The notes beneath the pieces are model-generated. The model searched no databases. It saw only the letters and a program-made list of their open reading frames with translations, and had not been told where the DNA came from. A stretch of 64,000 nucleotides of DNA from Lachnospiraceae bacterium GAM79 (GTDB taxonomy: Bacteria; Bacillota; Clostridia; Lachnospirales; Lachnospiraceae), in the NCBI GenBank assembly GCA_003584705.1, contig AP018536.1:1550001-1614000 (forward strand), in the 5' to 3' direction. The first letter of the stretch is position 1; every line of letters begins with the position of its first letter. Below, in pieces: positions 5,454 to 28,417 of the stretch. Made by a program: the position numbers and the translations under genes.

Positions 5454-5481
5454 TTTTTACATAATTTTAAGCAGAGAAATC

Positions 5482-5510
5482 TTGACGAAACAACCAGAGG
5501 AAATTAAAAT
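5482..5510 (+). promoter_or_regulatory. Probable sigma-A promoter of the chemotaxis receptor gene
   Basis: TTGACG (5482-5487), a 17-bp spacer and TAAAAT (5505-5510) lie about 40 bp before the receptor start. No sigma-28 type promoter was seen. Confidence 0.5.
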
Positions 5511-5551
5511 AAAATGTATGTAGGTTAATTAACGGAAGGAGCAGGAAACAA

Positions 5552-6817
5552 ATGAAAAAACTGGAAGAAATGCTAAGGGAGAAACCGATTAAAAATAAGC
5601 TTTCTTTTGTGTTCCGCATTATGGACGTTTTATATGTGGTGCTGGCACTGGTGTCAGTTGTGGGATTGATACAGTCAAAAAACTATGTGGGAAGCGTAAT
5701 TGTTGTGATCATAGTTGTATTAGCTATTGCATTTAATGCAGCTATGTCAAAGATGCTTGCCAAAATGTTGGTAGAGCCTATTGAAAGTCTGGTAGTGGCA
5801 TCTGAGAAGATTGCTTCCGGTGACTTTGAGATCGGCACTCCTTATGAGTCCGAGGATGAGCTGGGACGCTTATCCGACAGTTTTGAGACCGCAGCCGGTA
5901 TTTTGAAAAAGGTTGTATCAGATCTGCAGGATATTGTAGAGCATTTTGCTGAGGGTAATTTTGATGTACATAGCAACTGCCCCGATGCGTATGTAGGACA
6001 GCTCCGCAATGTACTGGATGAACTGGATGATATGGTGAACAAGGTCAGTGAGACTATGCACGGTATTCAGGGATCTTCCGAACAGGTGTCTGCCGGAAGC
6101 AATCAGCTGGCTGTCAGTGCACAGGATATTGCAGAAGGTGCTACCAGTCAGGCTGCAGCTGTTGAAGAACTGGTGGCTACCGTAGAAGAAGTAACGAATC
6201 AGGTAATGGAGAACACCAAGTCTACCGATATCGTTCACGATAAGGCAAAACAGGTAGGTATCGAGGCAGCCAACAGCCAGCAGAAGATGGATGAGCTGGT
6301 AGATGCCATGAAGAAAATCGATACCACGACCCAGAATATCGAGAAGATCATCGCAGATATCGAGAATATTGCATCCCAGACCAATCTGCTGTCTTTGAAT
6401 GCTTCCATTGAGGCAGCAAGAGCAGGGGAAGCCGGAAGAGGTTTCGCAGTCGTGGCTGACCAGATCAGACAGCTGGCAGAAGAGAGTGCAAATTCCGCAG
6501 TAGAGTCTAAGAAGCTGATCGAAGAATCCATGAACGAAGTAGGAGTGGGTAACAGGGTTACCAGGGAGACCAACGAAGCAATGCAGAAGGTTATGACCGA
6601 ACTGGATCAGATCATCCAGGAGGTTGCTAATATCCGTACTGCATCCGACAGACAGGCAGTATCTGTCAACAACATCAAGAAGGGTGTGGAGGACATCAAC
6701 GATGTTATCCAGTCCAACTCCGCAGCAGCAGAGGAGACTTCCGCTACCAGCGAGGAGCTTTCCGCTTCCGCTACTACTTTGAACGAGTTGTTAGAGCACT
6801 TCAAACTGCGCGGTTAA
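5552..6817 (+). CDS. Methyl-accepting chemotaxis protein without a large extracellular domain
   Basis: Signal transducer of 421 aa. Two closely spaced membrane helices (about residues 20-38 and 45-65) are joined by only a few residues, so there is no extracellular ligand-binding domain. A HAMP region follows (about 72-125), then a cytoplasmic helical bundle with the conserved hairpin tip ([20 protein letters not shown], about residues 272-291). It presumably senses membrane state or internal cues, or is driven by another sensor. No chemotaxis or flagellar genes lie nearby. A good AAGGAG ribosome binding site precedes the ATG. Confidence 0.93.
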
Positions 6818-6857
6818 TCGGAGGATGTTTTCCCAAGATCGTAATAGAGAGAACAGA

Positions 6858-6893
6858 AGAACCATAGCTGAAACCACAGCTGTGGTTCTTTTC
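6858..6893 (+). terminator. Rho-independent terminator after the chemotaxis receptor gene
   Basis: Stem AGAACCATAGCTG / CAGCTGTGGTTCT (one mismatch) is followed by TTTTC. It separates the receptor gene from the amidase gene, which starts 15 bp further on. Confidence 0.8.
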
Positions 6894-6907
6894 ATATCGG
6901 AGGAGTA

Positions 6908-8095
6908 ATGAGTAATAAGGAAATGCTTCATAGAAAACAATATGGGATAGCGGCGGTAGTGGCCGGTCTGGCGCTTGCAGTAAGTATGACAGCCTGTGGT
7001 GCACAGAAAGGGACTGAGGGGACGGAGAGCGTGGAAACTATGGAAAACGTGGATCCTGTGGTTCCCGAGAGCGTAGTAGCATCCGCGGAGACAACAGAAA
7101 ATGAGAAAAACGCAGAGGAATTCGGTAGAGAAACGCTGGCGGAAACGTCTGTGCCGCAAGGGGCGGCGAATAGTGCAGGACATGAAATGGTGACTTCGGG
7201 GACCGACAAAGTTCCTGGGGGAGAGGTTGCGGTGTCGCAAAGCGGTATGCCGACAGAGGCCGCAGGCAGTCAGACAGAAACGGTAGCCGGTCAGCCGGAG
7301 GCTATACAGAACCAGCCGGTGGAATATACCGACTTACAACAGATCACTCTGGATCCGGACTGGGAATATGCGGATCATTCGAAGATCAATACCGGGGCGG
7401 CGGTATTGTACCGGGCACCGGAGGAGTGTGGACGAAAGGGAATCATTATCGGAGTGAATGCGGGACATGGCACCGCCGGTGGGGCCAAAGTAAAGACGTT
7501 GTGCCATCCGGACGGTTCGGCCAAGACTACGGGAGGCAGTACGGCAGCGGGAGCTACAGAAGCTGCGGCAGTGTCCGGAGGCATGACATTTCAGGACGGG
7601 ACACCGGAGCGAACGGTTACTTTGCAGATGGCACAGATCCTGCGGGACAAACTGTTGGCCTCTGGCTATGATGTACTGATGCTCAGGGACGGAGAGGATG
7701 TGCAGTTGGACAATGTGGCCAGGACCGTGATCTGCAATAACGTGGCAGACTGCCATATTGCACTGCACTGGGACAGCGGTGACAGCAAGAATTACGACAA
7801 GGGATGCTTTTACATCTCTGTGCCGGAAGTACTGAAGAGTATGGAACCGGTGGCATCCCACTGGCAGCAGCACGATGCTCTGGGAGCGGATCTGGTGGAA
7901 GGGCTGCGGGGACAGGGAGTAACGATCTATGGAAAAGGAAACATGAGCATTGACCTGACCCAGACTTCTTATAGTACGATCCCTTCCGTGGATATGGAAC
8001 TGGGAAATGCATATTCCGATCACAGCGATGCTATACTGGATCAACTGGCGGAAGGATTACTGCAGGGGATTAACGTTTATTTTCAACAGCAGTAA
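6908..8095 (+). CDS. Lipoprotein with C-terminal N-acetylmuramoyl-L-alanine amidase (Amidase_3) domain
   Basis: Predicted exported peptidoglycan amidase of 395 aa. The N-terminus has a signal peptide ending in the lipobox-like SMTAC, so the protein is probably anchored to the membrane by a lipid at Cys23. Residues about 35-135 are a low-complexity Glu/Thr/Ala linker. The Amidase_3 domain (about 175-395) shows the zinc ligands NAGHG, PERTV and ALHWD, and the catalytic-type Glu in DMELGN. The usual HSN is HWD here. Start: ATG preceded by GGAGGAG. Its 3' end overlaps the convergent acyltransferase gene by 26 bp. Confidence 0.85.
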   Translation: MSNKEMLHRKQYGIAAVVAGLALAVSMTACGAQKGTEGTESVETMENVDPVVPESVVASAETTENEKNAEEFGRETLAETSVPQGAANSAGHEMVTSGTDKVPGGEVAVSQSGMPTEAAGSQTETVAGQPEAIQNQPVEYTDLQQITLDPDWEYADHSKINTGAAVLYRAPEECGRKGIIIGVNAGHGTAGGAKVKTLCHPDGSAKTTGGSTAAGATEAAAVSGGMTFQDGTPERTVTLQMAQILRDKLLASGYDVLMLRDGEDVQLDNVARTVICNNVADCHIALHWDSGDSKNYDKGCFYISVPEVLKSMEPVASHWQQHDALGADLVEGLRGQGVTIYGKGNMSIDLTQTSYSTIPSVDMELGNAYSDHSDAILDQLAEGLLQGINVYFQQQ

Positions 8096-9116
8096 GATTG
8101 GTTAGAGCGGCAATGCATTGATCGGAGATGGACTTCAAAAGAAATCCCAGCACTGCCATCAGCAGCAATTCAACGAGAAACAAACCTAAAACACCCACCA
8201 TACCGCGCATATAGGGAATAGCCCTCGGAGTGATAAAATAGATAATGATATGGTGGACCAGAAATACTTCATAAGAGTAGTTACTTATCGTACGGAGAAA
8301 TCGGCCGTTTCCTTTTTCGAGAACCGGTTCTAGGCATGCAGCGGAAATCCAGAAGGCAACGGCCAGTATCGTTATTTTCAAACCGGTGCTGATGGGAAGT
8401 GCAAAAGGGCACAGAACAAAGAAAATCACCACCGGCAGGGATAAGAAAATCCATTTAGGATTGAATTTTTCATGATAATAACCAATCATCATACCGATTA
8501 CGAACTCGTAGCCCTTCAGGAAGAAGTTCATATGGATGGGGACGGAGAAATCGTAATGAAATAAAACAATCAAATAAATCCCGGTAGCGATGATAAAAAA
8601 GAACTTTTCATTTTTTATCATAAAAAATCGAAGCAATGGAAAGATCAGATACAACAGAATAAGACATCCCAGAAACCATTCTCCGATGGTAAGGGAAAAG
8701 GTGCTGATCCCGTGCATGCTGACCCAGGAATCCATTCCAAGAAAAGTAAAAACAATTCTCCACGCAGGAATTCCTTCAGGAAAAATATTGTGGACGGAAT
8801 GGCTCTGGAAAAGGAGAAACAGGAAATAAACAATGTAAAGAATATAAAAGGGAATCAGGATGCGCAGAAATCTTTTCTTATAATATTTTGCGAGGCTGAA
8901 GTTCTCCTTCGCGGTATAGGAGAGACTGGCACCGGATAACATGAAAAATACAGCAACACCCAGGGTTGCCAGATGCATATTGCTGTTGGAAAACAGAGGA
9001 TTGAGTCTCTCTACAGGACAGATTCCGGAGAGATAGAGCTGAAAGAGCAGATGATAAAAAATAATGAAGCAAAAGCAGGTACATCTAAGCAAATCAAAAT
9101 AATGTATTCTTTTCAT
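8070..9116 (-). CDS. Acyltransferase family 3 membrane protein
   Basis: Integral membrane O-acyltransferase (348 aa, about 10 membrane helices) of the family that adds acetyl or other acyl groups to cell-surface sugars. The N-terminus has the family signature RIHYFDLLR followed by FYH with the conserved His. The acceptor cannot be inferred, as no glycan genes are next to it. It is a single-gene unit transcribed towards the amidase gene and has its own promoter (9149-9177). Confidence 0.85.
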   Translation of the reverse strand: MKRIHYFDLLRCTCFCFIIFYHLLFQLYLSGICPVERLNPLFSNSNMHLATLGVAVFFMLSGASLSYTAKENFSLAKYYKKRFLRILIPFYILYIVYFLFLLFQSHSVHNIFPEGIPAWRIVFTFLGMDSWVSMHGISTFSLTIGEWFLGCLILLYLIFPLLRFFMIKNEKFFFIIATGIYLIVLFHYDFSVPIHMNFFLKGYEFVIGMMIGYYHEKFNPKWIFLSLPVVIFFVLCPFALPISTGLKITILAVAFWISAACLEPVLEKGNGRFLRTISNYSYEVFLVHHIIIYFITPRAIPYMRGMVGVLGLFLVELLLMAVLGFLLKSISDQCIAALTNLTAVENKR

Positions 9117-9148
9117 TAATTTTTCCTCTTTGGTTTATGATATTGCAT

Positions 9149-9177
9149 ATTATAGCATATTTTTATTTCGAAAGAAA
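9149..9177 (-). promoter_or_regulatory. Probable promoter of the acyltransferase gene
   Basis: On the minus strand, TTTCTT, a 17-bp spacer and an extended -10 (TGCTATAAT) point towards the acyltransferase, 33 bp from its ATG. The -35 is poor, but the extended -10 is strong. Confidence 0.5.
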
Positions 9178-9190
9178 AGTATTTAGGTGT

Positions 9191-9218
9191 TTGAAAAAAA
9201 CACATATTATGCTATAAT
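9191..9218 (+). promoter_or_regulatory. Probable promoter of ychF
   Basis: TTGAAA (9191-9196), a 16-bp spacer and the extended -10 TGCTATAAT (TATAAT at 9213-9218). It lies back to back with the acyltransferase promoter. Confidence 0.6.
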
Positions 9219-9298
9219 TTTAGATTATATTGTTCAACTAATAAACAGAAAGGCAAAAATTCCGTTTATAGAGGGATTTTTGAACGGGTAAAGATAAA

Positions 9299-10396
9299 AT
9301 GAAGCTGGGTATCGTAGGTCTTCCCAACGTGGGAAAGAGCACACTTTTCAATTCCCTGACCAAGGCGGGAGCAGAATCCGCCAACTATCCCTTCTGTACC
9401 ATCGACCCTAACGTGGGTGTGGTAACAGTTCCGGATGACAGACTGAAAGCACTGGGCGAGATGTATCATTCCAAGAAGGTAACTCCCGCAGTGATCGAAT
9501 TCGTGGATATCGCAGGTCTGGTAAAGGGTGCCTCCAAGGGTGAGGGACTGGGCAACCAGTTCTTAAGCAATATCCGTGAAGTGGATGCTATCGTACATGT
9601 GGTAAGATGTTTCGAGGATCCTAATGTCATCCATGTGGACGGCAGCGTGAACCCTCTGCGTGATATCGAGACCATCAATCTGGAGCTGATCTTCGCAGAT
9701 CTGGAAGTACTGGAGAGAAGACTGTCCAAGGTAGTCAAGGCAGCCAGAATGGACAAGACCTATGCCAAGGAGCTGGCACTGCTTGAGCGTATCAAGGAGC
9801 ATCTGGAGAGCGGTAAGATGGCAAAGAGCCTGGATGTTACCGATGAGGATGAACTGGCTCTGTTAAAGGAATACAATCTGTTGACTTATAAGCCTGTGAT
9901 CTATGCAGCCAATGTAGCCGAGGATGATCTGGCAGATGACGGCGCATCCAATGAGATGGTGGCAAAAGTAAGAGAGTTCGCAGCCGGTGAACACAGTGAG
10001 GTATTCGTGATCTGTGCACAGATCGAGGAAGAGATCTCCGAGCTGGATGATGATGAGAAGGCAATGTTCTTAGACGATCTGGGATTAAAGGAATCCGGTC
10101 TGGAGAAACTGATTAAGGCAAGTTATCATATCTTAGGTCTGATGAGCTTCCTGACTGCAGGAGAGGATGAGACCAGAGCATGGACCATCAAGATTGGCAC
10201 CAAGGCACCTCAGGCAGCCGGCAAGATCCACTCCGATTTCGAGAGAGGCTTCATCAAGGCAGAAGTAGTAAACTACAAGGATCTGCTGGAGCAGGGCTCT
10301 CTGGCCGCTGCCCGTGAAAAGGGTCTGGTCGGCATGGAAGGTAAGGATTATGTAGTGCAGGACGGCGATGTGATCCTATTTAGATTCAACGTGTAA
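9299..10396 (+). CDS. ychF: Redox-regulated ATPase YchF (OBG family)
   Basis: Conserved P-loop protein (365 aa) that binds ATP rather than GTP and associates with ribosomes. The P-loop GLPNVGKST is at residues 6-14, DIAG follows, and the altered G4 motif is in NVAEDD. The C-terminal TGS-type domain includes the segment ending [10 protein letters not shown], the usual end of YchF. Length and ends fit the family exactly. It is a single gene between its own promoter and a long palindrome. Confidence 0.97.
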
Positions 10397-10402
10397 TACT
10401 AA

Positions 10403-10464
10403 GATCCGCAATAGACAGATTACGAGACTGCTTGCAGGCAGAGTAATCTGTCTATTAGCGGATC
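10403..10464. repeat. Long inverted repeat after ychF
   Basis: Two arms of 21-22 bp (10403-10423 and 10443-10464) pair with a single extra A. The inner 14 bp AATAGACAGATTAC is perfect. There is no T-tract, so it is not a standard terminator. It could act as an RNA 3' end or be part of the repeat block that follows. Confidence 0.75.
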
Positions 10465-10472
10465 AAACATAC

Positions 10473-10736
10473 ATGAGCAAGTAGGGCGATAGCCCGGAAT
10501 GCGAATGTATGTGCCGGATTCGGGAGCGCAGAGCGCGGAGAAGCCGGTTAGTATGGAGCCATGAGCAAGTAGGGCGATAGCCCGGAATGCGAATGTATGT
10601 GCCGGATTCGGGAGCGCGAAGCGCGGAGAAGCCGGATAGTATGGAGCCATGAGCAAGTAGGGCGATAGCCCGGAATGCGAATGTATGTGCCGGATTCGGG
10701 AGCGCGAAGCGCGCAGAAGCCGGATAGTACCAAGAA
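10473..10736. repeat. Three tandem copies of an 88-bp palindromic repeat
   Basis: Near-identical copies start at 10473, 10561 and 10649, each with ATGAGCAAGTAGGGCGATAG. Each copy holds the small hairpin GGGC-GATA-GCCC and a GC-rich second hairpin (GAGCGCGAAGCGC). Minor differences between copies occur only near the second hairpin. The block fills the gap between ychF and lgt, and the last copy ends just before the lgt ribosome binding site. Open frames through the block are repeat artefacts. Confidence 0.9.
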
Positions 10737-10750
10737 AGGAAATAAATATT

Positions 10751-11626
10751 ATGATGAATGCAGGAGATATTGCATTTCCCCATTTAGGCATTTACCTGGA
10801 GAATGTTCCCAGAAGCTTTTCCGTATTCGGTTTCGAAATCGCCTTTTACGGCCTGATCATCGGAATCGGGGTACTGGCAGGCATTCTGATGGCGGTGCAT
10901 CAGGCAAAGGTGACAGGAGAAAATCCGGATACGATCTGGGATTTCGCCATTTATGCCGTGATCTTTTCCGTGATCGGAGCCAGAATCTATTACGTGGTCT
11001 TTGCCTGGGACTATTACAAGGACAATCTGTTAAGCATTTTCAATACCCGTAACGGCGGTATGGCGATCTACGGCGGTGTGATCGGAGCATTCCTGACACT
11101 GCTCATTTATTGCAGGATCAAGAAGATCAACCCGTTCCGGCTGGGAGATCTGTGTGTGCCGGGGTTGATCCTGGGACAGATCATCGGCCGCTGGGGTAAC
11201 TTTATGAACCGTGAAGTATTCGGGGAATATACGGACAGTTTTCTGGCCATGCGGCTTCCTATCGAAGCTGTGCGCAGCCGGGATATTTCTGAGAATGTAG
11301 CAGCTCACATTATCGATGGGACCAATTACATTCAGGTACATCCCACTTTCCTCTACGAGAGCCTGTGGAATCTGATGATCCTGATCATTATGCTGGTGTA
11401 CCGCAAGCACAAAAAGTTTGAGGGTGAGATCTGTCTGCTGTACTTCGGAGGCTATGGTCTTGGCAGATTCTGGATCGAAGGTATCCGGACAGATACCCTG
11501 TTTATCCCCGGAACGACCCTCGCCGTATCACAGGTATTATCCTTGTGCATGGTGATCTTCGCAGTGGTGACGGACGTTGTGGTACGTATCCGCCTGGAAA
11601 AACAGCCGAAAGTGGAAAAATATTAA
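10751..11626 (+). CDS. lgt: Prolipoprotein diacylglyceryl transferase
   Basis: Membrane enzyme that transfers diacylglycerol from phosphatidylglycerol to the lipobox Cys of prolipoproteins. 291 aa with about seven membrane helices. The signature GRWGNFMNREVFGEY is present, as is HPTFLYES near the C-terminal third. Start: ATG at 10751, 10 bp after AAGGA; a longer open frame from 10685 runs into the repeat block and is not the gene. Its product would process the amidase lipoprotein encoded upstream. Confidence 0.95.
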   Translation: MMNAGDIAFPHLGIYLENVPRSFSVFGFEIAFYGLIIGIGVLAGILMAVHQAKVTGENPDTIWDFAIYAVIFSVIGARIYYVVFAWDYYKDNLLSIFNTRNGGMAIYGGVIGAFLTLLIYCRIKKINPFRLGDLCVPGLILGQIIGRWGNFMNREVFGEYTDSFLAMRLPIEAVRSRDISENVAAHIIDGTNYIQVHPTFLYESLWNLMILIIMLVYRKHKKFEGEICLLYFGGYGLGRFWIEGIRTDTLFIPGTTLAVSQVLSLCMVIFAVVTDVVVRIRLEKQPKVEKY

Positions 11627-16163: not shown

Positions 16164-17312
16164 ATGGCAGATCATCAGAATCGTTTCTTTCATCGGAAGA
16201 AGATCATGACCATATTTTTCGTATGTGCGGCAGTGCTCTGCGGACTGTTGGGAAGACTATTGTATCTGATGGTATGGCGGGCGGAATATTATGAGGAAGC
16301 GGCCACAAGGCTGCACGAAAGAGAGCGCAGCATCAAGGCGGCGAGAGGACGGATTCTGGATCGCAACGGGGTCGTGCTGGCGGACAACAAGATGGTCTGT
16401 ACGGTATCGGTGATCCACAATCAGATCGAGGAGCCGGAGCAGGTGATCGCCATACTGGTGAAGGAACTGGGAATCTCCGAGGAAGAGGCCAGAAAGCGGG
16501 TGGAGAAATATTCCTCCATCGAGCGGGTGAAAAGCAACGTGGATAAGACCGTGGGAGACCGGATCCGGGAATATGATCTGGCCGGGGTAAAAGTGGACGA
16601 AGATTACAAGAGATATTATCCTTACGGGGATCTGGCTAGCAAGGTGCTGGGTTTTACCGGAGGAGACAATCAGGGAATCATCGGACTGGAAGTGGTATAT
16701 GAAGAGATCCTGCAGGGGGATCCGGGAATGATCCTGACGATCACGGACGCCAAGGGGATCGAGGTGGATACGGCAGGGGAGCGTCGGGTGGAACCGGTGC
16801 CGGGCATGGATCTTCGTATCAGCATCGACCGGAACATCCAGGAGTATGCTACACAGCTGGCGGCGCAGGCCTGTGCCACCAAGGAGGCGGACAGTGTTTA
16901 TATAGTGGCTATGAATCCGCAGAACGGCGAGATCCTGGCTATGGTGAATTATCCGGAGTTTGATTTGAATGACCCTTATACCTTACCGGAGCTGACGGAA
17001 GTGAAGGAGGACGGCAGCGTTGTGGCGGTGGACCCGGACACACTGACGGCGGAACAGAAACAGGAAAAGCTGAATGCCATGTGGCGAAACGGCTGTATCA
17101 ACGACACCTACGAACCGGGATCCACCTTCAAGATCATCACGGCCGCTGCGGGACTGGAGGCGGGAGTAGTGACCCCGGAAAGCACTTTTTCCTGTCCAGG
17201 ATTTATCATCGTGGATGACCGCAGGATCCGTTGTCACAAGATCGCCGGGCATGGCAGCCAGACTTTTGTACAGTGCATGGAGAACAGTTGTAACCAGAGG
17301 GTCTGGATCTGA
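16164..17312 (+). CDS. spoVD: SpoVD-like sporulation transpeptidase, 5' part (split gene)
   Basis: First 377 codons of a class B PBP needed in Bacillus for spore cortex synthesis in the mother cell. Membrane anchor at about residues 16-36, PBP dimer domain, then the transpeptidase domain with the nucleophile motif STFK (in YEPGSTFK). The native frame reaches SCN (Ser375-Cys376-Asn377), then enters foreign sequence and stops after QRVWI. The missing 222 codons lie at 27749-28417. Position after pbpB and before spoIIGA-sigE supports spoVD. Alone, this fragment lacks the KTG motif and cannot be an active transpeptidase. Confidence 0.9.
   Translation: MADHQNRFFHRKKIMTIFFVCAAVLCGLLGRLLYLMVWRAEYYEEAATRLHERERSIKAARGRILDRNGVVLADNKMVCTVSVIHNQIEEPEQVIAILVKELGISEEEARKRVEKYSSIERVKSNVDKTVGDRIREYDLAGVKVDEDYKRYYPYGDLASKVLGFTGGDNQGIIGLEVVYEEILQGDPGMILTITDAKGIEVDTAGERRVEPVPGMDLRISIDRNIQEYATQLAAQACATKEADSVYIVAMNPQNGEILAMVNYPEFDLNDPYTLPELTEVKEDGSVVAVDPDTLTAEQKQEKLNAMWRNGCINDTYEPGSTFKIITAAAGLEAGVVTPESTFSCPGFIIVDDRRIRCHKIAGHGSQTFVQCMENSCNQRVWI
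17288..17295 (+). other. Left junction (attL core) of the spoVD-intervening element
   Basis: TTGTAACC occurs here and at 27742-27749, inside the spoVD codons for Ser-Cys-Asn-Pro. Left of it the sequence is spoVD; right of it lies element sequence AGAGGGTCTGG, whose GGGTCTGGA mirrors TCCAGACCC just before the right core. Confidence 0.88.
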
Positions 17313-17358: not shown

Positions 17359-17387
17359 TTGTAATTTTGTGAATTAGGCGGTATAAT
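17359..17387 (+). promoter_or_regulatory. Promoter of the three-gene cargo operon
   Basis: TTGTAA (17359-17364), a 17-bp spacer and a perfect TATAAT (17382-17387), 25 bp before the first cargo ATG. It is a vegetative-type promoter that lies wholly within the element. Confidence 0.75.
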
Positions 17388-17411: not shown

Positions 17412-17870
17412 ATGGTTAGACTATATACCTCAGGCAAATATTTTAAAGACAACGAAATCATCATAGACAATGATTCTTTTTTTAATAACAATGTATCTGC
17501 AAAAAGCCTTTCCGAAAATTCTATTAAGGTCATGGAAGAAGTTGACCATGCAAAGCTATTGGATCAGAATATCGGGAAAATAGAAACTCCTTACGGCATT
17601 ACTGGTATTCAGGACTTGTCAACGGGGTGCAAAACCATATTGAATTGCATTTTTCTGCAAGAGAACCAGAAGGTATATCCGACAGTCAGAGCGATTAATG
17701 CAACGGAATGCGGAAAGAATGCGTTAGAGCAGCTTTTCTGTTATATTGATAAGACTAATATGGACATAGGAATCGTCCTGGAGCATGAGGATGAAATATA
17801 TGAATGCGGTAACAGAGAGTATTTGATCAACGATTCCGAAAGAATAACAGACTTACTTTTCATGGTGTAG
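17412..17870 (+). CDS. DUF4869-like protein, first gene of cargo operon
   Basis: Soluble protein of 152 aa with no signal peptide, membrane helix or recognisable catalytic motif. The central stretch (PYGITGIQDLSTGCKTILN) and the following Cys/Asn region resemble my memory of DUF4869, a small family of unknown function; this needs a profile search. It starts 25 bp behind a strong promoter and is followed 16 bp later by the P-loop gene, so the three genes probably act together. AAGGAG lies 11 bp before the ATG. Confidence 0.5.
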   Translation: MVRLYTSGKYFKDNEIIIDNDSFFNNNVSAKSLSENSIKVMEEVDHAKLLDQNIGKIETPYGITGIQDLSTGCKTILNCIFLQENQKVYPTVRAINATECGKNALEQLFCYIDKTNMDIGIVLEHEDEIYECGNREYLINDSERITDLLFMV

Positions 17871-17886
17871 TTTATGGGGAGGTAAC

Positions 17887-18345
17887 ATGCAACAGTGTTA
17901 TGATTGGCAAAGCAATGTTTTGAAATTTACGGATGTAAACGGAAATAAATATAACTTAAAATTCCGGGGAAATAAGACCATAGTGCATGGGGATAGTGCA
18001 ACGGGAAAATCTTTACTGTGCACTATGTTGAAAAGCTACATCAACGATAATAATAATGCCAGCTTTAAGCCGTATAATGCTGACAATATTTTTATTGTAT
18101 CAAAGGATAATAAGGACAAGCTTTCCTTACAAAAGGGTAAGCTTATCATAATAGACAGAGCAGAGCTTATACTGGATGAACAGATGGTAGAAATTATCAA
18201 TGCGGACAGAGGGGACAACAGATACCTGATATTTTTAAGAAAACCTATGGGAATCGAGTTGTCACCGAACTATTTCGGGACGTTGTGCAAGAAGGATGGG
18301 GAACTGCAGTTGGAATATGAGTGTTATGTACGGGGGTGGGCATAA
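17887..18345 (+). CDS. Small P-loop ATPase, second gene of cargo operon
   Basis: Very short NTPase-like protein (152 aa). Walker A is VHGDSATGKSL (about residues 36-46) and a Walker B-like strand is KLIIIDRAELIL (about 86-97); a final acidic catalytic residue may be the Glu there. No ABC signature or sensor helices are obvious, so it is either a minimal ATPase or one half of a split machine. The ORF ends in a single TAA and the same frame continues directly into the TOPRIM-like gene. Confidence 0.65.
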   Translation: MQQCYDWQSNVLKFTDVNGNKYNLKFRGNKTIVHGDSATGKSLLCTMLKSYINDNNNASFKPYNADNIFIVSKDNKDKLSLQKGKLIIIDRAELILDEQMVEIINADRGDNRYLIFLRKPMGIELSPNYFGTLCKKDGELQLEYECYVRGWA

Positions 18346-19137
18346 TTGTTGTATATCATTACAGAGGATTCAAATTCAGCCCGTGATTTCTGGCAATGTG
18401 TAGCCCAGACATTCAGATCTGTGGATTCCTTTCTGTTAGTATCATTTCCAATCGGGAGTGATGGACAGACTGCTTCGGGGAATACAACCTTAAAGGCGCA
18501 GGTGTTAAGCATATTTCCCAAATTGCAGGCAGGAGATAAAGTATTTGTAGCGGTTGACTGTGTGGCAAACAATACCAAAGGGTTTATTGCACATGACTTT
18601 GTGAAATGGGGAACCAGGCTGTGCATGAAAAAAGGCGCTGAGTTTGTTGCTACATCCTATTGGTGCTTTGAGGATCTGTACCTTTCCTATGACGAAGTCT
18701 TAGCGATGTACTTGAAGAACCCCGTGGCAGAAAATGTGGTCATTGCTGCATTACAGTATGTACATGATAATTTGCAAAATGGAACAGATTATTTTGATAC
18801 CAGTCGCGAGATTCAGAACTTTATTGATTTACATAACAGCGCAGGAAAAAACAGAGAACACTTTGCAAACGAACTGCTGATGGAGGTAACAAGGGCATTA
18901 AAAGGGAACGGTCATTTTGCGATAACGAAATCAGTGGGAGCGTTCCGGAAATCGGCGGAATGTTGGTTGAGAGATTGCAGTGACATAAAAGAAAATATGG
19001 CACAACAGCAAGTGATAAATATATGCGATAAAAAGTGTGAATACTGCTGTAAAGATAAGGGTACCGTAGATAAGCTGATAGATTTAGACACAAGATCCAT
19101 TTGCAAGGACAGCGGTTACCGGCTTCAGCAGATTTGA
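18346..19137 (+). CDS. TOPRIM/DUF4435-like protein, third gene of cargo operon
   Basis: 263-aa protein with a layout like DUF4435/OLD-type TOPRIM nucleases: an early acidic residue after a beta strand (LYIITED), a second strand ending in Asp (KVFVAVDCV) and a YWCFEDLYLS segment like the S-x-E-N-Y element of DUF4435. The C-terminus carries a Cys cluster (CDKKCEYCC) that may bind metal. Start is TTG at 18346 or 18349 after GGGGGTGGG. Paired with a small P-loop ATPase, it resembles a split OLD-like module; the family assignment is tentative. Confidence 0.5.
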   Translation: MLYIITEDSNSARDFWQCVAQTFRSVDSFLLVSFPIGSDGQTASGNTTLKAQVLSIFPKLQAGDKVFVAVDCVANNTKGFIAHDFVKWGTRLCMKKGAEFVATSYWCFEDLYLSYDEVLAMYLKNPVAENVVIAALQYVHDNLQNGTDYFDTSREIQNFIDLHNSAGKNREHFANELLMEVTRALKGNGHFAITKSVGAFRKSAECWLRDCSDIKENMAQQQVINICDKKCEYCCKDKGTVDKLIDLDTRSICKDSGYRLQQI

Positions 19138-19155
19138 GAAGGTGGATACAGGGAA

Positions 19156-19193
19156 AGCAACCTATTCCTAGCGAGGGCGGTTGCTTTTTTTTT
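19156..19193 (+). terminator. Terminator of the three-gene cargo operon
   Basis: AGCAACC / GGTTGCT stem with a long loop, followed by nine T. It closes the operon 19 bp after the third stop codon. Confidence 0.8.
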
Positions 19194-20149: not shown

Positions 20150-20455
20150 ATGTTAATAGATGAAATGAAAAAGGAGTTCGGACAAATGAAATTTGATGTA
20201 GTCATAGGTAACCCACCATATAATAAAGGAATGGACTTAGACTTTGTAGACCTAGGTTATAAAATATCGAACAAATATACAGTAATGATAACACCAGCTA
20301 AATGGCAAACCACAGCAGATGATTATAGTGGATGTGCAAGTAAAAATATCAATTATAAGCAGTTTCGTGAAATGTATGTACCACACATGAGTTATGTTTG
20401 CTTCTATCCACAAAGCATGGAGGTATTTGACATTTACCAAATAGATGGTATTACA
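20150..20455 (+). pseudogene. Adenine-specific DNA methylase fragment, 5' side of an IS insertion
   Basis: 102 codons with the adenine methylase catalytic motif NPPY (about residues 22-25). The SAM-binding motif I that should precede it is absent, so the gene was truncated at its 5' end before or apart from the IS. The frame continues across the IS: DGIT at 20444-20455 joins WFIID at 21946 when the IS and one target repeat are removed. It would be 297 aa rejoined and still lack its N-terminus. Confidence 0.75.
20448..20455 (+). repeat. Target-site duplication of the IS256-family element (left copy)
   Basis: GTATTACA here and at 21938-21945, directly flanking the IS. Eight bp is the normal duplication for IS256-family elements. 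Confidence 0.9.
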
Positions 20456-20478
20456 GGGAGTATCCTAAAGTTTGTGTA

Positions 20479-20522
20479 AACCTCCAAACTGATGTAAGAT
20501 AAAATTACTCAGTTTGGAGGTT
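20479..20522 (+). promoter_or_regulatory. Hairpin sequestering the transposase ribosome binding site
   Basis: AACCTCCAAACTGA (20479-20492) pairs perfectly with TCAGTTTGGAGGTT (20509-20522). The Shine-Dalgarno GGAGG (20516-20520) is inside the 3' arm. This would block translation of transcripts that read into the IS from outside. Confidence 0.8.
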
Positions 20523-20528
20523 ATTTTT

Positions 20529-21782
20529 ATGGCAAGAAGAAAAGACAGCCCACAAAAAGCAGCAATGAGAGAAATGATGCGTGACTATCTGAAAAATAAT
20601 GATATCAGCATCAAAGACGGCACCGATGTAAATAGCATCATGCGTGACATGATGTCTGTCCTTTTGGAAGGTGCTTTGGATGAAGAACTGGATGAGGAAT
20701 TAGGATATTCCAAGTATGACTATCGAAACAAAGAAACAGACAATAGTAGAAATGGACATTCCAGCAAAACCATGCACACCAGTTATGGAGATATGGATGT
20801 GGCGATTCCAAGGGATCGTAACGGTGATTATGAACCACAGCTGATTAAAAAATATCAAAATACCGTAACTCAGGACATGGAAGAAAAAATACTTTCCATG
20901 TATGCCAAGGGAATGACAACTGGAGACATTGAATCCCACATGCGTGAATTATACGATATTGATATTTCTGACAGTACAATCAGCAGGATCACAGATAAAA
21001 TCCTGCCGATTGTAAAAGAATGGCAGGAACGCCCTTTGGAAGAAGTGTATGCTGTAGTATTTATGGATGCAATCCACTATCACGTCCGCAGTGAAGGACG
21101 TATTGTAAAACGTGCGGTTTACATTGCCCTTGGTATCGATATGAATGGGAAAAAAGATGTTCTTGGAATGTATGTTGGAGAAAACGGAAGTGCAAAGTTC
21201 TGGCTTTCTATCATGAATGGATTAAAAAACAGAGGCGTTGAGGATATCCTAATTGCATGCGTTGATGGTTTAAATGGATTTCCACAGGCAATCGAGGCGG
21301 TTTATCCAAAAACAGAGATTCAGCAGTGTATCATTCACCAGATCCGCAATTCAACGAAGTTTGTCTCCTACAAAGATATCAAAAAACTGATGGCTGATCT
21401 GAAGCTTGTATATGCGGCTCCAACGGAAGAAACAGCTTTAAATGAGTTAGAATTATTCAAAGATAAATGGGATTCCAAGTACCCGAAAATCTATAAATCC
21501 TGGCATGATAACTGGGCAACACTGTCCACTTATTTCAAGTATCCAGAAGCTGTAAGACGTTTGATTTATACCACAAATGCCATTGAAGGATTCAACCGTC
21601 AGCTTCGGAAAGTGACCAAAAGCAAGACAGTTTTTCCGTCAGATGATAGCCTTTTAAAAATGCTGTATCTGGCAACTATGGATATCACGAAAAAATGGAC
21701 CGGACACAGGCAGGACTGGGGGCAGATCCATTCCCAGCTGGAAATCTATTTTGAAGAACGTCTAATCGGACGCAACCTGTAA
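20529..21782 (+). CDS. IS256-family (Mutator type) transposase
   Basis: DDE transposase of 417 aa. The conserved core includes VFMDAIHYHVR (first Asp), LIACVDGLNGFPQAI (second Asp) and the C-terminal TNAIEGFNRQLRK with the Glu. Start is the ATG at 20529, 8 bp after GGAGG; an upstream in-frame TTG at 20514 is not needed. The gene is intact and probably functional. Confidence 0.96.
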   Translation: MARRKDSPQKAAMREMMRDYLKNNDISIKDGTDVNSIMRDMMSVLLEGALDEELDEELGYSKYDYRNKETDNSRNGHSSKTMHTSYGDMDVAIPRDRNGDYEPQLIKKYQNTVTQDMEEKILSMYAKGMTTGDIESHMRELYDIDISDSTISRITDKILPIVKEWQERPLEEVYAVVFMDAIHYHVRSEGRIVKRAVYIALGIDMNGKKDVLGMYVGENGSAKFWLSIMNGLKNRGVEDILIACVDGLNGFPQAIEAVYPKTEIQQCIIHQIRNSTKFVSYKDIKKLMADLKLVYAAPTEETALNELELFKDKWDSKYPKIYKSWHDNWATLSTYFKYPEAVRRLIYTTNAIEGFNRQLRKVTKSKTVFPSDDSLLKMLYLATMDITKKWTGHRQDWGQIHSQLEIYFEERLIGRNL

Positions 21783-21808
21783 AAACAGCTTGCTTTAGGC
21801 AGGTTTTA

Positions 21809-21874
21809 TTGACATACCCAAAAACTCCTGTATAATGCAGATATGGGCAGAATCCGGAAAATCGGCTCTGCCCA
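21809..21874 (+). promoter_or_regulatory. Outward promoter with immediate hairpin at the IS right end
   Basis: TTGACA (21809-21814), a 16-bp spacer and TATAAT (21831-21836), both perfect. A hairpin TGGGCAGA / TCTGCCCA (21844-21874) starts where transcription would begin, but only a short T stretch follows. It may produce a tiny RNA or drive the genes to the right. Confidence 0.6.
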
Positions 21875-21945
21875 TTTGTAACTATTCACAAATCTTATAT
21901 CAGTTTTTAACGTTTACACAAAACTTGAAACGGTCTCGTATTACA

Positions 21946-22533
21946 TGGTTTATTATTGATAAGAACACTCATGACAGTTGTGAAGTAATCAATAAATGTA
22001 GAGTGCAAGAATATTACAATTCATCAATAATGAGACCATTATTGGGGCGTGAAAGCCTTCTTAATATTGGTTCAGAAATTGTTGATAGTCTACACCAATA
22101 TAAACATTTTGTTTTTAGGCAATATGCATCAAATAAATATCAAGTATGGACAAATAATCAAGTAGCAGGCAGTGGTTCAAGATTTATGTCAGATAACGGA
22201 AGTTCAACAGTTATAGGGTTAAGTAGAATACTAGATACATCAAAAGGTGAAAAATCACCATCTGGAGCAAGTGAATGTATATTCAGTTCAGATAATAGAG
22301 CCGAGTGTGAAAGTTTTATATCATGGCTAAACACGAAGTTTACAAGATTTTTTGTTGCATGCAATATTTCAAAATTAACTGGAATACTCACCAATGATTA
22401 CTTCCGTTTCGTTCCCGCTCCACCATCAGGCAAGTTTGACCACATCTACACCGACCAAGAATTGTATGAAGCATTCAACTTACCTCAAAAATACATAGAT
22501 ATCATTGAATCAGTCATCAAAGAGCGAAAATAA
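21946..22533 (+). pseudogene. Adenine-specific DNA methylase fragment, 3' side of the IS insertion
   Basis: 195 codons plus stop, in frame with 20150-20455 once the IS is removed. It looks like the target-recognition and C-terminal part of an Eco57I-type or related N6-adenine methylase (RFVPAPPSGKFDHIYTDQEL is a typical ending segment). Without motif I it is unlikely to be active even if rejoined. Confidence 0.7.
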
Positions 22534-25630: not shown

Positions 25631-25813
25631 ATGGCAACTGGATCTGGCGCTAAGAGAGCAGCAAAGAACCGGGAGGTTTCCTTACGGAAGGAAACAGAGG
25701 TGCAGTGTGGAATTGTACGGTTACTGTACGAGGACGGAAGTTTATCGGAGAAGGAATATGAGGACATTGTGGAGTTGTTGTATGCAAAAGAAAAAGGAGG
25801 AAAACAGAAATGA
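25631..25813 (+). CDS. Small 60-aa protein translationally coupled to the recombinase
   Basis: Basic N-terminus (MATGSGAKRAAKNREVSLRK) followed by a helical SHOCT-like segment (LLYEDGSLSEKEYEDIVELL). GGAGG lies 5 bp before the ATG. Its stop overlaps the recombinase start (ATGA at 25810-25813), so the two are made together. Small basic proteins next to large serine recombinases are sometimes recombination directionality factors; that is only a hypothesis here. A longer overlapping frame from 25593 is a shadow. Confidence 0.7.
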   Translation: MATGSGAKRAAKNREVSLRKETEVQCGIVRLLYEDGSLSEKEYEDIVELLYAKEKGGKQK

Positions 25814-27684
25814 GCGAGCTTTCAAAATTTTCGCCGCAGACACGGGTGGCAATCTACAACCGGGTGTCTACGGAGAAGAAGGTACAGATGGAGGCACTGG
25901 ATGTGCAGGTGGCATACACGAGGAAACTGGTGGAGGACAATCACCTTACAATTGTGGATCAGTATATAGAGCCGGAGACCGGCACGGAGGCGGAGCATCG
26001 TCTGGAATATCAGCGGATGATTCGGGACATTAAGGCGGATCGGATCGATCTGGTGGTTGTGAAATGTTCGGACAGACTTTGCAGAGATCAGGCGGAATGG
26101 CACAATTTTGTGAAACTGCATCTGCAAAAGAAGTTTCAACTGTATTTTTATCTGGATGACCACATCTATGACCATGAGAGGGACGATATAAAATATTCTG
26201 TGCAGGCCATCGTGGATGCAGAGCAGAGTAAGATCACTTCCAAGAAAATCAGAGATATTCACAGCAACAGACAGATCTACGCCACGGGTTCCAAGGCACT
26301 GCATATATGCAGACCCTTATACGGCTGGGATCGGAATGTGGAGTTTATCGACGAGAACACCAAGCGTGTCTGGTGGACAGTCAACGAAAAGGAAGCCACA
26401 GAACTTCGCTACGCCTTGTCACTGGTGGAGCAGGGGATAGGTTTTTACCGTTTAGCCAACATCATGTATGACCGAGGGGTGCGGAGCAAAGGAACCACAG
26501 GGTATCACAAGATGCCTTCTGTGCGTATTGCGGCGAATACATGGAAGAAAATGCTGACCTCTCCGATGTTGCATGGAGACTGCATTTTACATAAGGAAGT
26601 CAGCAACTTCTACACCAAGGAGCGTGTGAAACTCCCGCAGGAGGACTGGATTTATAAGGAAAACGTGATTCCTCCCATCGTCAGCAGGGAATACCATGAG
26701 AAGATCGTTCAGATCATAGATGCAAGGCGGTTCCAGATGGGGTGCTGCAAGGGGCTGGCAGGTACCTACAAATGGAGTAACCGACTGGTCTGCGCAAATT
26801 GCAAGAAGCCATACTACAGAATGCACTACAAACTTAATTCCGAAAAAGTCATCACGTGGAAATGCAGCGAGCAGTTTCAGAGAACCCGAAGCGCCTGTGA
26901 CAATATGGTGATAGCGGAGAAAGAGTTAGAGAAGCAACTGGCGGCAGCACTGAAAGAAAAATATGCCTACCTTTTCCATATCTCTTCCGGTTTAATCAAC
27001 GATACGATTCATACCATTGAAAAGGCATTATGCAATTCCGACAATGGAAAAAAACTGAAGGCACTGGAAACCCAGCGTGAACTCCTTTTACGAAATAAGG
27101 ATGTATTGTTTCATAAGTTAATGAACGGAGTGATTTCCGATGAGGACTTTGGAATCTACAAGGACAGACTGGAAAAGGAACTTCGGGAACTGGAAGAAAA
27201 GATAGAGGGACAGAAAGACGGGGAGAAGAGTCTGGCGGATCAGTACCGCCGCTTACAGCAGATCCGGGATACCATAGAAAACAAAAATTATAACGAGCAG
27301 GCGATTCTGGAAATTCTCTATGGCTGTGTGGAGGTCATAGAGATTCATAACAACGGGGATATGGATGTCACCATGAGCAGGGAACTGATGCGGAGTAAAT
27401 TTGAACTGTACAGCATTGTGGAATCGGACTACAGTTTATTCCATTTTTCCTTCACTTATAAAAAAGAAACCATCTATGACCGCAATCGGAAAGCTTATAA
27501 CGAGAAAGTACTGGAACTGATCCGAAGTGAAAAATACATTACGATTCCACAGATGGCGGAGCGGCTGGGGAACACCTACAGCTATACCTGGCACAGTATC
27601 CAACAGTTAAAGGAGCAGGGCAGGATCGTTTATATCAAGGAAAAGTTCGAACATAGCGAATGCTATTGGGAGGTGGTAGAGTAG
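25810..27684 (+). CDS. Large serine recombinase of the spoVD-intervening element
   Basis: 624-aa site-specific recombinase that should integrate and excise the element. The catalytic N-terminal domain has the nucleophile in YNRVST (Ser20) and the conserved arginines in SDRLCRDQ. A recombinase domain is followed by a zinc beta ribbon (CANC, then WKC and SAC, about residues 328-365) and a coiled coil (about 400-490). The C-terminal 50 residues look like an extra winged helix (ITIPQMAERLGNTYSYTWHSIQQL). It is intact, coupled to the 60-aa gene, and ends 57 bp before the right junction, the usual place next to attP. Confidence 0.95.
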   Translation: MSELSKFSPQTRVAIYNRVSTEKKVQMEALDVQVAYTRKLVEDNHLTIVDQYIEPETGTEAEHRLEYQRMIRDIKADRIDLVVVKCSDRLCRDQAEWHNFVKLHLQKKFQLYFYLDDHIYDHERDDIKYSVQAIVDAEQSKITSKKIRDIHSNRQIYATGSKALHICRPLYGWDRNVEFIDENTKRVWWTVNEKEATELRYALSLVEQGIGFYRLANIMYDRGVRSKGTTGYHKMPSVRIAANTWKKMLTSPMLHGDCILHKEVSNFYTKERVKLPQEDWIYKENVIPPIVSREYHEKIVQIIDARRFQMGCCKGLAGTYKWSNRLVCANCKKPYYRMHYKLNSEKVITWKCSEQFQRTRSACDNMVIAEKELEKQLAAALKEKYAYLFHISSGLINDTIHTIEKALCNSDNGKKLKALETQRELLLRNKDVLFHKLMNGVISDEDFGIYKDRLEKELRELEEKIEGQKDGEKSLADQYRRLQQIRDTIENKNYNEQAILEILYGCVEVIEIHNNGDMDVTMSRELMRSKFELYSIVESDYSLFHFSFTYKKETIYDRNRKAYNEKVLELIRSEKYITIPQMAERLGNTYSYTWHSIQQLKEQGRIVYIKEKFEHSECYWEVVE

Positions 27685-27741: not shown

Positions 27742-27749
27742 TTGTAACC
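27742..27749 (+). other. Right junction (attR core) of the spoVD-intervening element
   Basis: TTGTAACC, the same as at 17288-17295. Left of it is element sequence TTCCAGACCCC; right of it the spoVD frame resumes as Pro-Ala-Leu-Ile-Ser-Val-Gly. Confidence 0.88.
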
Positions 27750-28417
27750 CGGCATTGATTTCCGTCGGCCTACGGCTCGGTGTGGACAATTACTACCATT
27801 ATTTTGAACAGTTCGGCCTAAAACAGCGCACCGGCATCGACCTGCCGGGGGAAGCTGGGACTATCATGCATAAAAAAGAGGATATGGGAAATGTGGAGCT
27901 GGCTACCGTGGCTTTCGGGCAATCTTTCCAGATCACAGCAATCCAGCTGCTGACCACGGCGTCCTCCATTATCAACGGCGGCAACCGGATCACCCCGCAT
28001 TTCGGCATCGAGGCGTTGAACCGTGACGGGGAGGTGGAAGAGACCTTTTCCTATCCGGTGCAGACGGGGATCGTCTCGGAGGAGACTTCGGCTACTATGC
28101 GCTACATTCTGGAAATGGTAGTGGCGGAAGGCTCCGGCAGAAACGGTCAGGTACAGGGCTTCCGCGTCGGCGGCAAGACTGCAACCAGCCAGACCCTGCC
28201 CAGAGGAAGCGGACGTTACATATCTTCCTTTATCGGCTTCGCTCCGGCGGATGATCCCCAGGTCATCGCCATTGCTATTATCAATAATCCCCAGGGCATC
28301 TACTACGGGGGGCAGGTGGCAGCACCGATCATAAGGCAGCTGTACGAAAATATTCTGCCCTATCTGGGACTGGAGAAGACCGAAGAACCGGAGGAGACAG
28401 CGGAGTCCGGGGAGTGA
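27749..28417 (+). CDS. spoVD: SpoVD-like sporulation transpeptidase, 3' part (split gene)
   Basis: Codons 378-599 of the reconstructed protein. It opens with the helix after SxN (ISVGLRLGVDNYYHYFEQFGL) and contains the third motif as KTA in GGKTATSQTLPR, with Ala where most class B PBPs have Gly. There are no PASTA repeats; the end is a short acidic tail. There is no start codon with a ribosome binding site, so it should be translated only after the element is removed. The spoIIG promoter follows 28 bp after the stop. Confidence 0.9.
   Translation, partial: PALISVGLRLGVDNYYHYFEQFGLKQRTGIDLPGEAGTIMHKKEDMGNVELATVAFGQSFQITAIQLLTTASSIINGGNRITPHFGIEALNRDGEVEETFSYPVQTGIVSEETSATMRYILEMVVAEGSGRNGQVQGFRVGGKTATSQTLPRGSGRYISSFIGFAPADDPQVIAIAIINNPQGIYYGGQVAAPIIRQLYENILPYLGLEKTEEPEETAESGE

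Follow-up and report, generated by a model that had tools for sequence, protein, structure and literature searches.

A three-gene operon in a spoVD-splitting element suggests an ABC-type ATPase divided between two small proteins and linked to a TOPRIM-like protein

Results

The DNA analyzed here (the window) is a 64,000-nucleotide stretch, positions 1550001-1614000, of the single-contig 4.08 Mb genome of Lachnospiraceae bacterium GAM79. At positions 17412-19137, it carries a compact operon of three co-directional plus-strand genes that encode proteins of 152, 152 and 263 amino acids with intergenic gaps of 16 and 0 nucleotides. ORF1 (17412..17870, +) encodes a distant DUF4869 protein that has a predicted ATP-binding cassette (ABC) head-like fold and no Walker A motif. 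ORF2 (17887..18345, +) encodes a minimal P-loop ATPase and shares its reading frame with ORF3 (18346..19137, +), which encodes a TOPRIM-like protein. The ORF3 start codon, TTG, lies immediately 3' of the ORF2 stop codon, and the two frames are divided only by this single TAA and the TTG. The promoter sequence TTGTAA-N17-TATAAT (17359..17387, +) matches the consensus at 10 of 12 positions and ends 24 nucleotides before ORF1. By count, promoter-like sites in the region do not exceed chance (8 versus 5.8 in shuffled sequences; standard deviation, 2.6); by eye, TTGTA[AT]-17-TATAAT also precedes the trio at two related loci, L006 and L007, and thus at three of the six trio loci. Downstream of ORF3, a hairpin followed by a T run forms an intrinsic terminator (19151..19190, +; -17.1 kcal/mol, z -2.67), which a simple terminator scan of the region did not report. 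The original prediction had described a trio with a promoter, a terminator, a P-loop and a Cys cluster, and the ORF, motif, promoter and hairpin analyses bear out this description. The G+C content of the trio is 39.3%, compared with 54.5% in the adjacent part of spoVD. In pairwise comparisons of the window, L006 and L007, the identities at codon positions 1, 2 and 3 of the three genes are 0.56-0.68, 0.65-0.84 and 0.36-0.46, respectively, a pattern that indicates purifying selection on each gene. The window trio is a real, conserved and selected three-part system.

ORF1 belongs to the DUF4869 family (PF16163) by profile comparison. The Pfam scan gave no DUF4869 match for the window ORF1 (gathering cut-off, 28.9 bits), and its homologues at L002, L006 and L007 score 20.2-23.3 bits, under the same cut-off. 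The hhalign comparison of ORF1 with DUF4869 covers 100 columns with a probability of 95.9% and an E-value of 5.4e-9. The DUF4869-like label first given to ORF1 is therefore retained as a distant homology, without a direct Pfam match. ORF1 contains an ABC-signature-like sequence, LSTG (residues 69-72; 17616..17627, +), at the start of a predicted helix (residues 71-84). The motif [LIVMF][SA][GTSA]G-x-K is present in 82 of 87 DUF4869-like ORFs, with close variants in the other five, and in 1 of 111 background ORFs, and a Walker A motif is found in none of the 87. In an hhalign comparison, the LSGG of DUF4869 is weakly aligned to the LSSGE of three ABC ATPases (P-value 0.0064; reversed control, 0.78). 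The C-lobe of ABC ATPases runs in the order signature helix-strand-helix-strand, and the predicted order in ORF1 fits it.

The best AlphaFold2 model of ORF1 has a mean predicted local distance difference test score (pLDDT) of 90.7, and its structural neighbors, classed by row titles, are mostly of the ABC type. Foldseek gives 37 ABC, SMC, Rad50 or Csn2-type titles among the best 50 of 525 rows, where Csn2 is presumably ABC-like. In the VIA comparison, 49 of the 50 rows listed are ABC-type and include Rad50, SMC, GajA, PARIS and retron complexes. The model aligns with Rad50 (3qf7) over 135 residues (Z 6.0, 3.9 Å), with GajA (8sm3) over 122 residues (Z 5.0, 5.3 Å) and with chain B of AriA-AriB (8v46) over 137 residues (Z 4.9, 3.7 Å).

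ORF2 contains a Walker A motif, GDSATGKS (residues 35-42; 17989..18012, +), and a Walker B motif, LIIID (residues 86-90; 18142..18156, +), which is followed by R and not by the usual catalytic E. G35, S37, G40 and K41 of Walker A and D90 of Walker B are invariant columns across 15 mini-ATPases. D90 is followed by R in the six window-type proteins and by N in the nine diverged ones, and an acidic residue occupies position D90+3 in all 15. The second genes of the trios encode Walker A in seven of seven cases and the signature in none. Because the usual Walker B glutamate is replaced by R or N, the split versions may hold ATP rather than cycle it, as far as their sequences tell.

Across 18 diverged third-gene proteins, only E7, D8, D71 and E109 are invariant. 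In ORF3, these residues correspond to the acidic pair E7-D8 (18364..18369, +), D71 (18556..18558, +) and E109 (18670..18672, +). The invariance of E7-D8 arises partly by selection because an ED pattern close to the start served as the initial criterion for choosing some of the third genes. TOPRIM domains adopt an alpha/beta fold with a glutamate after strand 1 and an acidic residue after a later strand, and their metal ligands sit at strand ends. E7/D8 (with the selection just described), D71 and E109 of ORF3 agree with this definition, and E7 and D71 are located at the ends of predicted strands in the ORF3 model. The best Foldseek rows for ORF3 are OLD Toprim domains, with non-significant E-values of 0.0051-0.0054 from a low-confidence model. 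The VIA comparison of the same low-confidence model gives RecR (1vdd; Z 5.8, 2.9 Å, 82 aligned) and OLD (6njv; Z 5.5, 4.8 Å, 135 aligned), both under generic Rossmann rows. ORF3 is thus TOPRIM-like and not a proven TOPRIM protein. Near its C-terminus, it also contains the Cys cluster C227-x3-C231-x2-C234-C235 (19024..19050, +).

The order ORF1-ORF2-ORF3 recurs at five further loci (six with the window), with gaps of -1 to 16 nucleotides. In an ORF3 search of 299 genomes of the family, the trio was found, besides the window's own genome, in one genome (G111), where it occurs three times. An ORF2 search added L006 (Agathobacter sp.) and L007 (Clostridia bacterium). At L005/L009, ORF3 is truncated and, in our reading, adjoins an opposing transposase-like ORF. 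A weak ORF3 match in another genome (L003) and L064 were judged to be chance matches. The ORF3 profile matched, among 391 genomes of the class, only its own genome and one sequence with internal stops, and a tblastn search of phages and plasmids with ORF3 found nothing.

DUF4869 is present in 56 of the 299 sampled family genomes, and G111 alone has 13 matches of several subtypes on many contigs (loci L088-L094 and others). In 20 of the first 30 canonical loci, DUF4869 is accompanied by an intact fusion ORF of 317-343 amino acids that joins the ATPase to the TOPRIM-like part. The fusion was not found in three loci, and it is broken beside an open DUF4869 gene in seven (L012, L013, L016, L028, L030, L035 and L040). 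The N-terminal part of the fusion matches ORF2 (hhalign probability 98.4%, E-value 9e-15), and its central part aligns with the beginning of ORF3 (64.5%, 6.3e-5). On the window genome, a single-frame match of the fusion profile extends across ORF2 and the TAA into the beginning of ORF3 (E-value 6e-11). The signature pattern occurs within the first 150 residues in only 2 of 20 fusions (positions 50 and 56), and the Walker B motif reads D-E in 17 of the 20 and E-E in the remaining three.

Of 96 DUF4869-like loci, 68 have both an ATPase and a TOPRIM gene on their own strand no more than 1.7 kb away, a count for which some diverged-class profiles had been trained on loci that they scored; a TOPRIM gene alone is found in three. 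Control flanks more than 3 kb from canonical loci (181 kb) contain no TOPRIM match and one ATPase match. The parts genuinely co-occur, and the notion that their homologues are never found together is contradicted. With D, A and T standing for DUF4869, ATPase and TOPRIM, the fused orders are D-AT (32 loci, plus three short ones) and AT-D (4), and the split orders are D-A-T (19) and T-D-A (10). Five of the 19 D-A-T loci (L013, L040, L122, L126 and L132) are broken fusions in our reading, and both genes are open in eleven D-A-T loci of the diverged type. Early impressions that the split trio is rare and that one locus class is TOPRIM-less were wrong because diverged TOPRIMs had been missed: weak DUF4869 matches proved to be further split systems, and the TOPRIM gene lies upstream in 10 of the 13 loci of that class. 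Independent support comes from the canonical-fusion profile, which matches the upstream TOPRIM genes in 4 of those 13 loci, and from the window-type ORF3 profile, which matches one of these four (E-value range, 1e-6 to 1e-10). At L104, L105 and L094, a DUF4869-like gene and a mini-ATPase gene were observed with the TOPRIM gene undetected on both sides.

One fusion protein used as a query found matches in three plasmids and in five unannotated faecal 'Bacteriophage sp.' contigs. The plasmid records annotate the pair as a DUF4869 protein and a 'hypothetical protein'. The five contigs (H4-H8: MT836825, MT836187, MT835885, MT839573 and MT835722) hint at phage or other mobile carriage. The ORF2, ORF3 and fusion profiles found nothing in viral contigs. 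PADLOC and NCBIfam scans gave only weak matches, mostly to P-loop profiles, and the only useful outcome of PDB sequence searches was a set of P-loop matches for the fusion. Six P-loop matches in other families were rejected; the two of them that were examined resemble ordinary ABC transporter genes.

The trio is the first cargo of an element that splits spoVD. The 5' part of spoVD (16164..17312, +), which encodes the penicillin-binding protein dimerisation domain and the start of the transpeptidase domain, is cut by the element, and the 3' part (27755..28417, +) covers TIGR02214 positions 350-571. The element is bounded by a left (17288..17295, +) and a right (27742..27749, +) copy of the 8-bp core TTGTAACC and measures 10,454 bp between them; when the flanks are joined, one uninterrupted spoVD frame results. 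A domain scan identified a large serine recombinase with Resolvase, Recombinase and zinc ribbon domains (25810..27684, +). The carrier thus combines a serine recombinase, direct core repeats and in-frame restoration of the host gene, as gene-intervening elements do, and the proposed carriage on a gene-splitting element is supported by the repeats and the restored frame. Inside the carrier, a transposase-like ORF (20514-21782) apparently divides, by eye, a gene at 20150-22533 into two fragments; this gene is presumably methylase-like from its NPPY motif. The insertion suggests wear in the carrier element. The protein encoded at 22627-23406 matches phrog_34041 (function unassigned; E-value 2.7e-6).

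Two related loci lie in other gene-splitting elements. At L007, a 4,114-bp element (7358-11480) with the core GTGGTATCG splits, in our reading, a sleC-like gene (Pfam matches, PG_binding_1 and a weak SpoIID), and the joined flanks are in-frame. Its content is mainly the trio and a serine recombinase. At L010, a 6,390-bp element (5043-11444) splits what we read as an M23 peptidase gene, again with joined flanks in-frame. Two trios stand in tandem in the L010 element, the first of which (5487-7342) is highly diverged. The kinship of the second one with the window trio is unproven: in hhalign comparisons against 50 shuffles each, its second protein scores 24.4 versus 17.9 for the top shuffle, and its third protein scores 19.1, no higher than the top shuffle (19.1). 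The three elements have diverged recombinases (L007 versus L010, 28% identity; that of the window barely alignable to either). Therefore, the trio was presumably recruited repeatedly or moved between carriers.

Discussion

We propose that the operon encodes a three-polypeptide machine in which a split ABC-type ATPase, made of ORF1 and ORF2, controls a TOPRIM-like nuclease, ORF3, and we judge this proposal to be somewhat more probable than its opposite. It rests on conserved adjacent parts, several gene orders, natural fusions and complementary motifs, as well as on the fold prediction of ORF1, the invariant acidic residues of ORF3 and the gene-splitting carrier. On this basis, we infer that the proteins form a complex with a composite site, that ORF3 is a nuclease, and that the machine responds to a trigger and serves in defence.

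How would such a machine operate? ORF2 would bind ATP through its Walker A and Walker B motifs. Because the signature and the Walker motifs fall on separate chains, ORF1, which has kept the signature and lost Walker A, is expected to pair with ORF2 and close one composite ATP site. The closed ATPase would keep ORF3 inactive; when opened or remodeled by a trigger, which is most likely to come from a phage, it would release ORF3. The freed ORF3 would then cut nucleic acid, either tRNA, as PARIS AriB does, or DNA, as OLD does. Such cutting would stop the infected cell, and the carrier element would gain by protecting its host. In the split versions without the Walker B glutamate, the ATPase may serve as an ATP-holding latch and not as a motor. 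Defence is the likeliest use on the grounds of analogy, patchy distribution, several copies per genome and frequent decay. By extension, DUF4869 could mark a large undescribed immune family in which a TOPRIM nuclease is gated by signature-only and Walker-only half-heads that share a single ATP site and in which the modules are fused, split or reordered, an idea that we regard with rather more doubt than confidence.

Several observations weigh against the proposal of a split ATPase that controls a nuclease. For ORF1, the AlphaFold2 input held six sequences, and the five models differ in pLDDT (90.7, 90.7, 81.0, 75.8 and 35.6). The resemblance to ABC, SMC or Rad50 heads is modest, with Z values up to 6.8 among the VIA rows listed, and no Foldseek match of ORF1 (best, 0.013) or ORF3 (best, 0.0051) reaches an E-value of 0.001. 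The hhalign comparison of DUF4869 with the three ABC ATPases is weak (probability 5.9%, P-value 0.0064). For ORF3, the pLDDT of the model is 63, with residues 188-263 under 50, and RNase J and designed Rossmann folds stand at the top of the VIA listing. No named TOPRIM appears among the 50 viral structure rows listed for ORF3, and its relatives match no TOPRIM family in Pfam, PADLOC or PDB sequence searches. The classical DxD is missing from ORF3 (D71-C-V), and DLD occurs, among the 18 aligned third-gene proteins, only in the second trio of L010. The picking by the ED pattern biases the invariance of E7-D8; D71 and E109 are free of that selection. At the level of loci, the self-scoring profiles mentioned above qualify the 96-locus count, in which 14 loci have the ATPase only and 11 have neither partner. 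The former include L094, a seventh window-type locus that is an ORF1-ORF2 pair with ORF3 undetected. Finally, no defence or mobile signal stands out clearly among the 25 of 198 families listed for the neighbors of canonical loci. For that survey, 140 neighbors were picked, of which 128 from 19 canonical loci were scanned, and no background rate was computed; the commonest family occurs in 4 of the 128, and AAA_21 (3) and Schlafen AlbA_2 (2) are possibly defence-related among the families listed.

Some of these points would be explained if ORF1 were no ABC half-head. Its LSTG sequence and fold likeness would then be coincidental, and DUF4869 would be a sensor or inhibitor of another fold that accompanies an ATPase-controlled nuclease. 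The modest structural scores, the lower confidence of three of the five models and the weak hhalign result would fit such an arrangement. However, the structural rows listed for ORF1 are of the ABC type with few exceptions, the motif recurs in nearly all DUF4869-like ORFs and lies at a helix start, and the order of the elements that follow it fits an ABC C-lobe. We therefore consider coincidence improbable.

The trio could also be a toxin-antitoxin or addiction module, in which ORF3 is a toxic nuclease curbed by ORF1 and ORF2 and serves to stabilise the carrier, not to fight phage. The carriers have flanks that rejoin cleanly and might disappear through excision, the genes are compact and often overlap, and a nuclease-like protein with an ATPase partner would suit such a role. 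However, three of the six trio loci (L006, L008 and L009) show no recombinase of these types within 15-16 kb. Moreover, in PARIS, which is a similar system, neither of the single-gene deletions was toxic, and its authors excluded a toxin-antitoxin function (PMC9122126). The seven canonical loci with a broken fusion and an open DUF4869 gene would be tolerated by an addiction module but are not predicted by it. Addiction is thus unlikely to be the function of the trio. A housekeeping role, in which the trio would help gene-splitting serine-recombinase elements with excision, with its directionality or with their own maintenance, is very improbable: the trio sits in three such elements and makes up, with the recombinase, the main genes of the 4.1 kb L007 element, but the three recombinases are diverged, none of these types is found near L006, L008 or L009, just 1 canonical locus of 20 has such a recombinase, and the directionality factors described for such elements are small (72 and 53 amino acids; PMC10747680).

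The split ATPase-nuclease machine that we favor resembles two known kinds of systems. In PARIS, as described in PMC12409363 and PMC9122126, a Toprim tRNase is held by an ABC ATPase sensor and set free by a phage trigger, and the system consists of two genes or one fusion. The trio and its relatives likewise combine an ATPase with a TOPRIM-type effector as separate genes and as fusions, and the ORF1 model aligns with the AriA-AriB chain given above. In contrast to PARIS, the ATPase here is spread over two small proteins, with Walker A and the signature on different chains, and a third gene, DUF4869, is added. The rule given for PARIS combines an AAA_15 or AAA_21 ATPase with DUF4435 over Pfam thresholds (PMC9122126); none of these three families scored over the Pfam cut-off in the trio or in the relatives scanned. 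The PADLOC AriA profile was rejected as a means of surveying PARIS, as it matches all 299 genomes and all 14 controls; its match to the first protein of the second L010 trio therefore means 'ABC-like' only. In OLD proteins, a single chain contains both an ABC ATPase and a Toprim domain, and it has been proposed that PARIS forms a fourth class of OLD (PMC10568477). The system shares this pairing with P2 Old, TsOLD and GajA of Gabija, which is echoed by the non-significant top Foldseek rows of ORF3, but it is built of three chains, or of DUF4869 and the fusion. Its genes are separate in the window, and those relatives that are fused rarely contain the signature pattern within the first 150 residues of the fusion. 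The closest counterparts are the two-gene DUF4869 loci, whose first protein is of the same family as ORF1 by profile comparison and whose fusion is homologous to ORF2 and matches ORF3 at its start. The window version differs from them in having three genes and D-R in place of D-E at Walker B. Thus, our best reading is that the family works like PARIS or OLD and belongs to neither by the tests run. Among the open-access papers searched, no text on DUF4869 or on split ABC/Toprim systems was found, and a search combining gut with Toprim/DUF4435 gave the PARIS paper alone.

Gene-intervening elements as such are already known (PMC5595907, PMC10747680). The skin, SPbeta/spsM, vfbin, gin and yin elements are like the carrier in having a serine recombinase, a short direct core repeat and in-frame restoration of the host gene. 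The host genes split here are spoVD and two that we read as a sleC-like gene and a gene for an M23 peptidase. The list of earlier cases in the yin-element paper (PMC10747680) names none of these hosts, and a search of open-access papers for spoVD with excision or insertion elements found nothing relevant.

The original prediction also proposed an ATPase-plus-TOPRIM logic, which gains from the natural ORF2~ORF3-like fusions and the invariant acidic residues and falls short where ORF3 remains an unproven TOPRIM. Its idea of a new minimal module holds for the small size of the genes; the system is not simply a miniature, given that the ABC head looks divided and that the trio is one of several DUF4869 arrangements. 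The survey of neighborhoods that it suggested placed two relatives in other gene-splitting elements and gave no clear defence signal around canonical loci.

What does the trio mean for this family of bacterial proteins? The system belongs to the ATPase-TOPRIM kind and is unusual in that its ABC head is apparently divided between two genes. DUF4869, a domain of unknown function, is thereby tied to the ATPase-TOPRIM defence logic as part of a proposed three-part machine. If ORF1 and ORF2 do share an ATP site, the trio would be a very small ABC-TOPRIM system (304 amino acids for ORF1 and ORF2 together) and a clean model for the ATP gating of such nucleases. That three distinct gene-splitting elements carry this accessory module is relevant to the reasons for which elements of this kind persist. 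By analogy with known systems, the many relatives in varied gene orders point to a family that has received little study and whose members probably act against viruses.

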